Assembly (NCBI GenBank): GCA_018269075.1
Contig: JAFDVJ010000038.1
Span: 1 to 64,000, forward strand
Direction: 5' to 3'
Origin: Acidobacteriota bacterium
GTDB taxonomy: Bacteria > Acidobacteriota > Blastocatellia > Pyrinomonadales > Pyrinomonadaceae
Length of the DNA stretch: 64,000 nucleotides
The translations under genes and the position numbers were made by a program. Position 1 is the stretch's first letter, and each line of letters starts with the position of its first letter. Shown here one piece after another: positions 6,896 through 60,949 of the stretch. The notes beneath the pieces were generated by a model that saw nothing but the letters and a program-made list of their open reading frames with translations, did no database searches and was not told the DNA's origin.

Positions 6896-6920
6896 GCCAA
6901 CGGCTGTTTTCCCGATAATC

Positions 6921-7214
6921 GAGTCAGAACGCTTGGGCAGCGAGTTATATCGTTATGGCAATGAGTTAGAACGCTTTGGCAATGAGTCAGAACGCTTTGG
7001 CAATGAGTTAGAACGCTTTGGCAATGAGTTAGAACGCTTCGGCAAGCAGTTATATCGCTATGGCTACGAGTTAGAACGTTAAGGCAAGGAGTTATATCGT
7101 TAAGGCAAGGAGTTATATCGTTATGGCAAGGAGTCAGAACGTTATGGCAAGCAGTTAGAACGTTATGGCAAGGAGTTAGAACGTTATGGCAAGGAGTTAG
7201 AACGTTATGGCAAC
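6921..7214. repeat. 21-bp minisatellite, 14 units
   Basis: Fourteen units of exactly 21 bp run without a phase slip; the core is GAGTTAGAACG or GAGTTATATCG, then an NNTGGCAAN tail. Units vary in blocks: CTTTGGCAAT early, TTATGGCAAG late. In one plus-strand frame the units read as heptapeptides like ELERFGN and ELYRYGK, but two units (8 and 9) carry TAA, so it is not one continuous coding frame. Palindromic repeats with unique spacers are absent, so it is not a CRISPR. It ends 97 bp before the gene at 7312. Confidence 0.85.
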
Positions 7215-7311
7215 TAGTTTAAAAATCGCGGCCGGAGGGAACCGGAGCGGGGCGGTTGGTGTCTAAGGAGGGCGGCGGGGTCGGGACGGCTTCGGCGGGA
7301 GGGAGAACGGG

Positions 7312-25090: not shown

Positions 25091-25170
25091 CCTTTCGCAT
25101 TGTATTTTTTTGGTCGAAATTGTCGTCTCGGAAATGTTCCGACAACCCGGATTAAACGAAAATCAGCCGG

Positions 25171-25405
25171 CTCCAAAAACACAGCTTCCGACTCCAAAAA
25201 CACAGCCTCCGACTCCAAAAACACAGCTTCCGATCGTAAAAACACAGCTTCCGATCGTAAAAACACAGCCTCCGATCGTAAAAACACAGCTTCCGAATGC
25301 CAAAACACAGCTTCCGAATGCAAAAACACAGCTTCCGACTCCAAAAACACAGCTTCCGACTCCAAAAATACAACCGCCGAATCAAAAAAAACAGCTTCCG
25401 ACCAG
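25171..25405. repeat. 21-bp minisatellite with A-tracts, about 11 units
   Basis: Units are CTTCCG, a variable 5-base block, then an A-rich AAAAACACAG end. The variable block changes in runs (ACTCC twice, ATCGT three times, AATGC twice, ACTCC twice), a sign of local duplication. The A5 tract recurs every 21 bp. All six frames are nearly free of stops, so several long ORFs cross it; none has coding character outside the array. A solo unit lies at 25687-25707 in the otherwise featureless 340-bp stretch before the next gene. Confidence 0.85.
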
Positions 25406-37797: not shown

Positions 37798-37957
37798 GAG
37801 TCTTTTTCAGACAAGAGGAGAAGAGACCCACACTCTCCGCGTGAAAGACTTTGAAAACTATCCCGTTTTGAATAAATTATCCCGCATTAAAACTTCTATC
37901 CCGTCCCGTTTATTTTAACCGCCGCGATCAACCTAAATCCTCTCAATGCAGACCAAT

Positions 37958-37981
37958 CCGAAATCCGAAATCCGAAATCGA
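37958..37981. repeat. GAAATCC-word array
   Basis: Three 7-bp words of the type CGAAATC. On the minus strand it begins 2 bp after the stop codon of the transglycosylase gene. Same family as the arrays at 48005, 48701 and within hemW at 59933. Confidence 0.65.
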
Positions 37982-37983
37982 CA

Positions 37984-38829
37984 TTATTGGTTGACGAGCC
38001 GCATCCGGCCGTCGGGCATTTTGATCGCGAGCGCGTTCGGTTCGTAGACCGTCAGCGGCTTTGACTCCTTCTGCTCGAGCTTGACGGCCTGCTGGATCGA
38101 CACTTTCTTGACCGATTTGATGTAGTTCGGGTTCGTGATCGAGCTGTAGCGCGCCGTGATCCGGCGGACGTATTCCTGCGTTTCGCGAAACGGCGGCACC
38201 TGGTTGCCGTAGCGCATCACCGCGCCTTCGCCCGCGTTGTAGCCGGCGAGCGCGAGCACGACGTCGCCGCCGAACGTGTTGAGCAGCCAGCGCATATATT
38301 TGACGCCGCCCTCGATGTTCTGCTGCGGATTGTAAATGTCCGTCACGCCGAACCGCCGCGCCGTCGCCGGCATCAGCTGCATCAAACCGCTCGCGCCTTT
38401 ATACGAAGTCGCGCGCAGCTTGAACGACGATTCCTGATGCATCTGCGAATAGATCAGCAGCGGATCGATGCCGTAGCGGCGGCACGAATCGACGATGTAG
38501 GAATCGATTTCCTCGCTGCCGGTCGTGAATCCGCGCATCGCGCTGCCGGCGGCCATCGTCATCTTCGTGTAGCTGGCGTTCGAGATTTCCGGCTTCGCGC
38601 CGAGACCGTCCTGGACGTTCATCGTCTGGACGGTTTTCTGAACCACTCTTTTTTCGCCCGTCTTCGTTTTCTTGGTTTTAACGGCCGGCGCCTGCGCGAT
38701 GGTCGGTCTGGAAACGACCTGTACGCCGCCCGTCGTATCGAAATTGTCGAAAACCCGGGAACGTGTCTGAGCCGCTGAGGAAATTGTTAAAATAAAGCCG
38801 ACAGTGATATAAAGAAGGGTCTTTTTCAT
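37984..38829 (-). CDS. Lytic transglycosylase, SLT domain
   Basis: A 281-residue exported murein lytic transglycosylase. Signal peptide 1-20 (TLLYITVGFILTISSAAQ), a linker of about 85 residues, then the SLT domain from about 108 (IDSYIVDSCRRYGIDPLLIYSQM). Catalytic Glu133 lies in HQESSF, followed by the family motifs GASGLMQLMPATARRFGV, NIEGGVKYMRWLL and ALAGYNAGEGAV. It cleaves peptidoglycan between MurNAc and GlcNAc, forming 1,6-anhydro ends, in the periplasm. It has a complete length and its own terminator. Monocistronic. Confidence 0.94.
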   Translation of the reverse strand: MKKTLLYITVGFILTISSAAQTRSRVFDNFDTTGGVQVVSRPTIAQAPAVKTKKTKTGEKRVVQKTVQTMNVQDGLGAKPEISNASYTKMTMAAGSAMRGFTTGSEEIDSYIVDSCRRYGIDPLLIYSQMHQESSFKLRATSYKGASGLMQLMPATARRFGVTDIYNPQQNIEGGVKYMRWLLNTFGGDVVLALAGYNAGEGAVMRYGNQVPPFRETQEYVRRITARYSSITNPNYIKSVKKVSIQQAVKLEQKESKPLTVYEPNALAIKMPDGRMRLVNQ

Positions 38830-43329: not shown

Positions 43330-43832
43330 CTGTTTTTTTGACGCTGACACCGTTTTTTTCGCGGCTGACAGCGTATTTTCCGGCGCTGTCGCCGGTTTTT
43401 ATGCGATTGACGGTTGTTTTTTGGCGATTGCCGGTTGTTTTTTCTCATCTGACCGCTGTTTTTTTCGATTCGTCGACTGTTTTTTTGCGTCTGTCGGTCG
43501 TGTTTCCGCATCTGTCGCCGGTTTTTATGCAATTAACGGCCGGTATTTCCCGCTGCCGGCGAATTTGACTCGCCGGTCGGCGTTTTTTTCGCGATTGATG
43601 GCTGTTGTTTCGCGATTGACGGGTGTTTTTTTTCGATTGACGGTTGTTTTTTCGGGGTTGACGGTTGTTTTTTTCGATCTGCCGGCCGTGTTTTCGTATC
43701 TGTCGATCGTTTTATGCAGGTGTCGGCGGATTTTATGCAGGTGTCGGCGCTTTTTACTCGGTTGTCGCCGCTTTTTACGCGATTGTCACCGCTTTTTACT
43801 CGGTTGTCGCCGCTTTTTACGCGTCTGTCGGC
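43330..43832. repeat. 21-bp minisatellite with T-tracts, 24 units
   Basis: About 24 degenerate units of 21 bp: a G/C start, a TTTTT-TTTTTTTT tract, a variable middle and a GTCGGC or TGACGG end. One 1-bp phase slip near 43581. The last four units alternate ACTCGGTTG and ACGCGATTG types, showing recent pairwise duplication. T-tracts recur every 21 bp. This is the largest feature in the 857-bp gap between two genes; the flanks hold no ORF with coding character. Confidence 0.85.
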
Positions 43833-47449: not shown

Positions 47450-48103
47450 AACTGAAAAGTTTCCTCCTGATGTGTTCATATTCAAAAATTAAACCGGCAA
47501 AATCTGCCGTGATGCTTAAAACCGAACCGATTGAACCGCCCGGAACGCGTCGTCCCGACTGACCTTCAACCGGCTAAACGATATCGAAAAGAAAAAAGGG
47601 TCATCGCCGCGAAAAAAATATTATCCCGCGACGACCGCCGAAAACGGCCTCTGAAATTCCTCGGGCGCCCGGACCGCGACGGGTCGCGCGGAACGGGCGA
47701 AGGCGAAATTCGACGGAAAATCACCGGCAGCCGGAACGTTCGCGAAACGCTCCGACCGGAAAGGCGCAAGAACTTTTTCCGTCGTTCGAAAAAGCCGCAT
47801 ATCGATTGTTGTATTGAAATCGGTTAAAACTTGTCTTTCAGTATAAGCCGAAACTCGATTTTGTAAAGGAAAATTTTGCGCTTTGCGCCCGAAAACGCGG
47901 GAACCGGCGATCGATCGCCGGCGGCGTCGAAACCTTTCGCCCGGTTCGCGCGTAAAAGCCGAAAAACTTGTCTTCGCAAGGCCCGCATTGGTAAACTGAG
48001 AGCGATTTCGGATTTCGGATTTCGGATTTCGGATTTCGGATTACTCGTTTCGGCGAAGACGGTTCGGTTCTACTTTAAATCTATTGGCAAGGAGTTTAGG
48101 AAT
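47450..48103. other. Gene-free stretch of 654 bp
   Basis: No convincing gene. It contains the presumed promoters of the two divergent flanking genes and, at 48005-48043, an array of four to five GGATTTC words. The rest is GC-rich and without clear structure. The plus-strand frame is open into the redoxin gene through the word array, but the real start with a good ribosome-binding site is at 48104. Confidence 0.6.
48005..48043. repeat. GGATTTC-word array, 5' side of the redoxin gene
   Basis: Five copies of the 7-bp word GGATTTC, plus orientation, 60 bp before the ATG at 48104. Together with the copy at 48701 in the same orientation it brackets the redoxin gene as direct repeats. Confidence 0.7.
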
Positions 48104-48700
48104 ATGAAGCGGAAAAGCATTTTACTGGCGGCCCTGCTGGCGGCCTTCGTTTTTGTGTTGGGCGGCGACGTCGACGCGCAGCAGACCTTTGCGGTCGGCG
48201 CGAAGCTCGACAATTTCAAATTGAAGGACACCGACGGCCGGGAACGCTCGCTCGACGAGCTGAAGGGCGAAAAGGGCACGGTGCTCGTTTTCCTGTCGGC
48301 GCAGTGTCCGGTCGTGCGCGGCTACAACGAGCGCATCAAACAGATCGCGGCCGATTACGCCGGCAAGGGCATCAACTTCGTCGGCATCAATTCGAACGCC
48401 ACCGAATCGCTCGACTGGGTCAAATCGAACGCGGCCGAGATCGGCTACAAATTCCCCGTCCTGATCGACACCGGCAACGCGCTCGCCGACCGGCTCGGCG
48501 CGAGCGTGACGCCCGAAGTCTATTTTCTCGACGCGCAGAACGTCCTGCTCTACCACGGCGCGATCGACAACGACAAAACCGGCCGGGCGATCACGACGAA
48601 CTATCTGAAAACGGCGTTCGACGCCTCGCTCGACGGCCGGAAGATCGAAAAAACCTCGGCCCTCGCGTTCGGCTGCAGCATCAAACGCAAAGGGGATTAG
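48104..48700 (+). CDS. Exported redoxin/AhpC-TSA-like protein
   Basis: A 198-residue thioredoxin-fold protein with a signal peptide (ILLAALLAAFVFVLGGDVDA). The redoxin part has FKLKDTDGRERSLDEL, VLVFLSAQCPVVRGYN with Cys68, and the cis-Pro region GASVTPEVYFLD. Only one Cys of the usual CxxC is present (CPVV), so it is more like a thiol-specific peroxidase or a single-Cys redoxin than a TlpA disulfide reductase. A second Cys lies near the end (AFGCSIKRK). AAGGAG at 48089 supports ATG 48104. GGATTTC arrays lie on both sides; the stop TAG overlaps the start of the 3' array. Confidence 0.85.
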   Translation: MKRKSILLAALLAAFVFVLGGDVDAQQTFAVGAKLDNFKLKDTDGRERSLDELKGEKGTVLVFLSAQCPVVRGYNERIKQIAADYAGKGINFVGINSNATESLDWVKSNAAEIGYKFPVLIDTGNALADRLGASVTPEVYFLDAQNVLLYHGAIDNDKTGRAITTNYLKTAFDASLDGRKIEKTSALAFGCSIKRKGD

Positions 48701-48736
48701 GGATTTCGGATTTCGGATTTCGGATTTCGGATTTGG
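48701..48736. repeat. GGATTTC-word array, 3' side of the redoxin gene
   Basis: Five GGATTTC words start within 1-2 bp of the TAG stop codon (48698-48700; GATTAGGGATTTCGG). Same orientation as the array at 48005. Confidence 0.7.
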
Positions 48737-59809: not shown

Positions 59810-60949
59810 ATGAAAGCCGGCATTTATCTTCACGTCCCGTTCTGCAAATCGCGCTGTTCCTACTGCGATTTCGCGACCGACGTCTACCGCTCGGCGGAAG
59901 CCGTCGACCGCTACGTCGACGCTCTCGTCCGGGAAATCCGAAATCCGAAATCCGAAATCCGAAATCCGAAATCCGAGATCGACACCGTTTATTTCGGCGG
60001 CGGCACGCCGTCGCTGCTCGCGCCGTCGCAGCTCGAACGGATCGTCGGCGCGCTTCACGAAAGATTCGCGGTCGACGCGGAGATCGAATTCACGCTCGAG
60101 ATGAACCCGGCGACGGTGACGGCGGAAAAGCTCCGCGATTATCGAAGCCTCGGCGTCAACCGCGCGAGCTTCGGCGTCCAGACGTTCGACGACCGCGCCC
60201 TGAAATTACTCGCGCGCGGCCACGACGCCCGGGACGCGCGCCAAACGTTCGAGCTTTTGCGCGCCGCCGGTTTCGACAACATTTCGTTCGACCTGATCGC
60301 CGGTCTGCCCGGCCAGACGCTCGAAGATTGGACGAGGAATCTCGACGAGGCGCTGCGGATGAAGCCCGAGCATCTCTCGCTTTATCTCCTCGAAATCCAC
60401 GAGGGCACGCCGCTCGCCGAACAGGTCCGGAGCGGCCGCCGGCCCGCGCCCGACGACGAGCTCGCCGCCGCGATGTACGAGACGATGCTCGACCGGACGG
60501 CCGCCGCCGGCCTGCCGCAATACGAGATCTCGAACTTCGCCCGGCCGGGTTTCGAAGCCCGTCACAACTCGAAATACTGGCGCTGCGAGCCGGTCTTCGC
60601 GTTCGGCGTTTCGGCGCATTCGTTCGACGGCCGGACGCGCCGCGCCAACGAACGCGACACGAACCGCTACGTGTACCTGATCGAGCGCGGCGAATCGCCG
60701 GTCGTCGAGGAAATCGAGCTCGACGCCGAGCAACTTTCCGCCGAGTTCGCGTTTCTAAGCTTACGTCTGACCGAGGGATTGAATTTCAAAGACTACCAAA
60801 CTCGCTTCGGTATTGATCTTAACCGCCAATACGCGCAGGAATTTGAGCGTCTCGAAGAATACGGTCTGATCGCGATCGATCAGGGCGTTTTACGACTTAC
60901 ACAAAAAGGAATGGTCTATTCAAACGAGGTTTTCTCGGTTTTCGTTTAG
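59810..60949 (+). CDS. hemW: HemW-type radical SAM protein, with repeat insertion
   Basis: A 379-residue radical SAM protein of the HemW/HemN-like family. The [4Fe-4S] motif is C12-x3-C16-x2-C19 (FCKSRCSYCDF), followed by FGGGTPSLL, FTLEMNPATVT, NRASFGVQTFDD and DLIAGLPGQT; the C-terminal HemN domain has YEISNFARPG and HNSKYWR. HemW is a heme chaperone for respiratory enzymes rather than a coproporphyrinogen oxidase. Between ALVREI and DTVYFGGGTPS lie 14 residues, RNPKSEIRNPKSEI, encoded by six perfect 7-bp GAAATCC words. That is a loop of variable length in the family, so function is probably kept. The lipoprotein gene is divergent. Confidence 0.93.
   Translation: MKAGIYLHVPFCKSRCSYCDFATDVYRSAEAVDRYVDALVREIRNPKSEIRNPKSEIDTVYFGGGTPSLLAPSQLERIVGALHERFAVDAEIEFTLEMNPATVTAEKLRDYRSLGVNRASFGVQTFDDRALKLLARGHDARDARQTFELLRAAGFDNISFDLIAGLPGQTLEDWTRNLDEALRMKPEHLSLYLLEIHEGTPLAEQVRSGRRPAPDDELAAAMYETMLDRTAAAGLPQYEISNFARPGFEARHNSKYWRCEPVFAFGVSAHSFDGRTRRANERDTNRYVYLIERGESPVVEEIELDAEQLSAEFAFLSLRLTEGLNFKDYQTRFGIDLNRQYAQEFERLEEYGLIAIDQGVLRLTQKGMVYSNEVFSVFV
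59933..59974. repeat. Six GAAATCC words in hemW
   Basis: Six exact copies of GAAATCC (42 bp) and a degenerate seventh (GAGATCG). Six times seven is divisible by three, so the reading frame is preserved. Same family as the arrays at 37958, 48005 and 48701. Confidence 0.9.

Follow-up and report, generated by a model that had tools for sequence, protein, structure and literature searches.

The window, meaning the whole 64,000-nucleotide stretch of DNA that was analysed, belongs to an uncultured member of the Pyrinomonadaceae (Acidobacteriota), labelled G000, whose genome comprises 7.4 Mb in 169 contigs. The plus-strand gene at positions 59810-60949 encodes a radical SAM protein of 379 amino acids and was identified as hemW by its score against TIGR00539 (heme chaperone HemW; 282.6 bits, curated cut-off 205.4). 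The CxxxCxxC motif is present, with C12, C16 and C19 invariant, and the predicted fold matched E. coli HemN (1olt) best. Within this gene, also on the plus strand, six perfect GAAATCC words occupy 59933-59974, and the perfect period-7 run reaches 59976 (44 nt, the six words plus GA) before giving way to a diverged GATCG. This array (59933-59976) encodes EIRNPKSEIRNPKSE, and the translation across it reads ...REIRNPKSEIRNPKSEIDTVYFGGGTP.

The array encodes approximately residues 42-56 of HemW. The predicted model (mean pLDDT 91.9) places a coil at 45-55 between helix 29-44 and strand 56-64, and the coil has lower pLDDT within an otherwise confident structure. The original observation of six perfect in-frame words between a helix and a strand of HemW was confirmed in both respects, by recount and protein family score for the words and by the model for their position. 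The model also supports the site being a length-tolerant loop.

Abundance and placement of the word in the genome

Two-word matches were found 12 times in the window, compared to 0 in dinucleotide-preserving shuffles, and none is expected by chance. When the 21-mer of three GAAATCC words was counted, G000 gave 1062 overlapping hits over the two strands, compared to 0 for the reversed control. The three genomes of the same genus (G001, G002 and G003) had 10, 6 and 5 hits, respectively, and the 21-mer was present at all in just 22 of the 119 family genomes, which are fragmentary MAGs. Placement statistics were obtained from a 1.60-Mb sample of G000 (L192-L291) with genes called by a home-made caller. 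Perfect arrays of at least 3 copies in this sample were mostly of period 7 (n = 292, including 184 of GAAATCC), with 29 of period 8, 34 of period 9 and none of period 10 or 11. GAAATCC runs of at least 14 nt numbered 216, of which 102 were 32-33 nt long, and the median of 4.6 copies indicates a preference for about four units. Arrays from two other genera, built of different words (GACTCCA in G004 and AAAATCC in G014), likewise centred on 32-33 nt. We do not claim that a need for four G-tracts in a quadruplex sets the copy number, as the AT-only word AAAAATT reaches 4.4 copies, albeit in few cases.

The hemW array is longer than this modal length and its source is a MAG, and both points would fit an assembly error in which the copy number is wrong or the array chimeric. 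We consider such an artefact extremely improbable, as the reading frame is intact through the array, the locus is deep within a 121.8-kb contig, and relatives that were assembled independently have this loop occupied as well.

Three further copies of the word were located in the window, none of them within a called gene. A gap of 4 nt separates the end of the copy at 37955-37979 (plus strand) from the stop codon of 37984-38646, a minus-strand gene, and the copy at 48701-48734 (minus strand) immediately follows the stop codon of 48104-48700, a plus-strand gene. The third, at 48004-48042 (minus strand, GATTTCG on the plus strand), has no called stop codon adjacent. These sites and the 21-mer counts bear out the proposal that the word recurs outside genes. 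Across the 1.6 Mb, 92 of 208 perfect GAAATCC runs were at a stop codon, all in the same orientation (coding strand ATTTCGG). In the intergenic arrays GATTTCG reads along the gene, and the median gap between array and stop was 3-4 nt when the neighbouring gene on that side terminates towards the array. Among non-genic period-7 arrays of the TRF set, 121 of 392 began at most 5 nt from a stop, compared to 3.2% of random non-genic sites. Stop-codon placement was less strict for the G004 and G014 arrays than in G000.

Further words of 7, 8 and 9 nt displayed the same post-stop placement, and a total of 195 post-stop arrays in fixed orientation was counted among the 1159 genes of the G000 sample. 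Of the 114 located before a same-strand gene, 50 also have an inverted partner at most 400 nt away. In the window, inverted pairs of short 7-, 8- or 9-mer arrays that could form hairpins were observed at 2791/2820, 18329/18500, 25519/25559, 36887/37000, 37655/37704, 39112/39420, 43901/43929 and 48824/48891. Inverted doublets as a single hairpin mobile element were set aside because arrays adjoin stops and convergent genes alone therefore yield doublets; the arrays may still form hairpins. The window also contains long tandem arrays with a 21-nt period at 6920-7219, 25167-25402 and 43332-43830.

Arrays within genes

Coding sequence makes up about 80% of the sample, but only 30 of the 216 GAAATCC runs (about 14%) lie wholly within called genes, indicating depletion. 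About twenty sampled genes contain such an array internally, hemW being one of them, and the in-gene units, 14-44 nt long, are plain tandem arrays. As 7 and 3 share no common factor, the repeated word encodes the same peptide cycle in every frame of a strand, EIRNPKS in the three forward frames and GFRISDF in the three reverse frames. GAAATCC lacks stop codons in all six frames, which allows in-gene runs to be read through. The same is true of about half of all heptamers, and the property is therefore permissive rather than a special design. By a hand count of the internal cases, the coding strand carried GAAATCC in 17 and GGATTTC in 4 (p = 0.007). Selection against the hydrophobic peptide or selection against a G-rich coding strand would explain this bias; either would suffice.

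In-frame arrays occur in genes for unrelated proteins, including hemW, thrC, kinases and others. Three protein kinases (L199:7831-7863, L277:15476-15508 and L192:3750-3777) have the array just before a common LDNIVLKALRK-like motif, in one case reversed. The threonine synthase of G000 (L237:5651-6970, minus strand) has a GAAATCC array before PSGNFGN. We compared 29 threonine synthase sequences, including that of G000 (relatives L292-L321), and found arrays at the same place in five genomes with different words: GAAATCC in G000, AAAATCC in G032, AAAAATC in G033, a mixture in G041, and AAAATGG with AAAATCC in G110. The segment is 45, 45, 47 (G000), 52 and 59 residues long in these five, compared to 38-42 in the rest. 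No array was present at this place in G003, G002 or G111. As G110 and G111 belong to the same genus, the threonine synthase array was gained or lost recently.

Seven is not divisible by three, and a perfect 44-nt run belongs to the slippage-prone kind; gain or loss of one word in hemW would shift the frame, and the array could be a contingency locus that switches HemW on and off. This is very unlikely: all homologue frames recovered were open with no internal stops, loop content turns over instead of staying slippage-prone, and similar arrays reside in other housekeeping genes.

The HemW loop across the family

HemW was recovered from 112 of the 119 family genomes, and 109 loops were readable. 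A significant lag-7 signal (p of at most 0.01) was present in 22 of the 109, and the other lags from 4 to 12 gave 0-4 each. The words differ among genomes and include GAAATCC, AAAATCC, GAAATTC, AAAAGTC, GAAAACC, AAAAACC and GACTCCA, among others. When the loop word formed a run of at least 12 nt, it was resident elsewhere in its own genome in 8 of 10 cases, compared to 66 of 535 other genome-word pairs (pooled Fisher p = 3e-6, which is indicative as the rows are related). G047 and G065 have a GAAATTC array in the loop, yet neither genome contains a perfect 21-mer of this word, so the resident pool is not always visible. As the loops of relatives are filled by 7-base words of their own, the HemW loop is a site where repeats find refuge again and again, and not an isolated oddity. 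Other repeat-like peptides were also noted in this loop (PPALAGG...NWPAxxAxGS and VGAGLVP[AT]RE; L033, L040, L046 and L050 from G045, G064, G084 and G081, and L068 and L080 from G009 and G005).

HemWs of the same genus (64-70% identical) carry other words, which suggests that the perfect copies reflect a recent expansion, as originally proposed. The ordinary loop has 10-13 residues; it has 15 in G000 and G002 and 22 in G001, G003 and G012. Together with the predicted structure, these homologues support a loop that tolerates changes in length. Homologues had been expected to lack the 14 residues or to differ by multiples of three words. The first expectation did not hold, as most keep a loop of ordinary length and the array sits in a pre-existing loop, which it makes slightly longer. 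The second held in part: some relatives differ by exactly 7 residues, or three words (15 versus 22), but many differences are not multiples of 7. Overall, the original interpretation is partly supported; it did not include the different heptamers in the loops of relatives, the usual post-stop site of the word or the other genes with internal arrays.

RNPKSE-like peptides are found in the HemW loops of several relatives, as might be expected if the loop were an old functional feature of the protein whose codons repeat by accident. However, similarity among loops follows the DNA words, lag 7 is conspicuous in the DNA, and unrelated loops are found in a sister clade and in many members of the same clade. 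The same residues in diverged codons across the class were looked for among the HemW homologues and were not encountered. The homologue survey thus rejects an old conserved feature, to which we give almost no credence.

A quick HemW tree was built without the loop. All 22 period-7 loops fell into one clade of 65 sequences (SH-aLRT 100), and none fell into its sister clade of 42 sequences. The G002 loop holds a diverged array and equals the G000 loop in length and phase, with 32 of 45 positions identical. Across genomes, the array peptides tend to finish in a like phase, with I or V before D/E at the strand boundary in HemW and NP before V in threonine synthase. These observations are also what would be expected had a single ancient period-7 array, present in the ancestor of the clade, been overwritten in place by resident words through conversion or slippage, with losses. 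As drawn, however, the tree requires 12 array changes, at least 4 of them forced by supported branches; threonine synthase differs even within one genus; and selection for a conserved hydrophobic or proline residue could also produce the shared phase. We regard a single ancient array as unlikely, and the HemW arrays may either have been gained many times or descend from one old array whose words turned over.

In our judgement the best reading, and a probable one, is that the resident heptamer colonised tolerant loops in a nearly neutral manner. GAAATCC would be a simple heptamer repeat that multiplied recently in this Pyrinomonadaceae genome. Its main niche is the position just after a stop codon, where the G-rich strand (GATTTCG) is the coding one, similar to known post-stop G-rich heptamer repeats. 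Arrays in genes would survive only when the word is free of stops in all frames, the total length keeps the frame, and EIRNPKS lands in a variation-tolerant loop. The HemW loop after helix 1 would have been colonised repeatedly in the family by the resident heptamer of each genome. The data show directly that the word is amplified, that it favours post-stop sites, that the array lies in the loop, that arrays recur in relatives and in a second gene, and that loop words match genome words; we infer that colonisation was nearly neutral and recent, and in what order these events took place. Candidate routes into genes are slippage starting from a short seed, gene conversion at ectopic sites and a mobile carrier. 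Active transfer of the resident heptamer into tolerant loops of conserved proteins, by copying or conversion within the genome, is conceivable but rather doubtful; unrelated proteins in a cell would then have a lineage-specific peptide in common, rewritten when the dominant word changes. RAYT/REP mobilisation, in which repeats flank the transposase, was rejected: ten Y1_Tnp matches exist in the genome, but no array was found within 500 bp at the five inspected.

With one loop, many genomes and different words, the system is a natural replicated experiment in how old proteins acquire new residues from simple repeats, and it gives clear predictions on frame, orientation and position. The identical peptide in all frames shows why units that are not divisible by three can enter genes. 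For annotation, RNPKSE and FRISDFG peptides in such genomes should be treated as footprints of repeats and not as domains.

Comparison with known repeats

The GGGNATC heptamers of Xanthomonas and Nostoc (Rehm et al. 2015, PMC4692102) occur genome-wide with about four units preferred and are mostly non-coding. Their G-rich strand lies on the coding strand near the stop codon and is avoided on the coding strand within ORFs. GAAATCC has all of these properties, as a dispersed heptamer of about 4 units that is found post-stop and is depleted in ORFs, with the G-rich strand coding. Unlike the Rehm repeats, which have three Gs per heptamer, GGATTTC has two Gs per tract, its placement is much tighter (median 3-4 nt from the stop), and families of 8 and 9 nt occur beside it. 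In-frame arrays in conserved-protein loops traced across a family extend beyond that system.

The TAACTGA direct repeats of Beggiatoaceae (MacGregor 2015, PMC4679880) are likewise heptamers at many sites (well over a hundred), mostly intergenic and with a minority in ORFs. They precede start codons, their forward copies carry stops, and the intragenic ones are mostly at protein ends, whereas GAAATCC lies behind stops and in internal loops. Heptanucleotides, the unit length of GAAATCC, also dominate the long prokaryotic simple sequence repeats of 5-11 nt described by Mrazek et al. (2007), as cited in PMC4679880, and the cyanobacterial STRRs (PMC2670836), and slippage was proposed. Our literature search yielded no account of a single protein loop whose words turn over across a family, and nothing on tandem repeats behind stop codons in Acidobacteria or on tandem repeats in Pyrinomonadaceae.

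According to the review in PMC10969869, the Rickettsia palindromic elements (Ogata et al. 2000) are palindromes of about 150 bp that lie in frame in unrelated conserved genes. As far as that account describes them, they resemble the present arrays in being dispersed, in frame in unrelated genes, stereotyped in peptide and apparently tolerated, and they differ from a 7-nt tandem repeat that is readable in six frames. The phenomenon combines a variant of the known heptamer repeats with in-frame tolerance of the kind seen in the Rickettsia palindromic elements.
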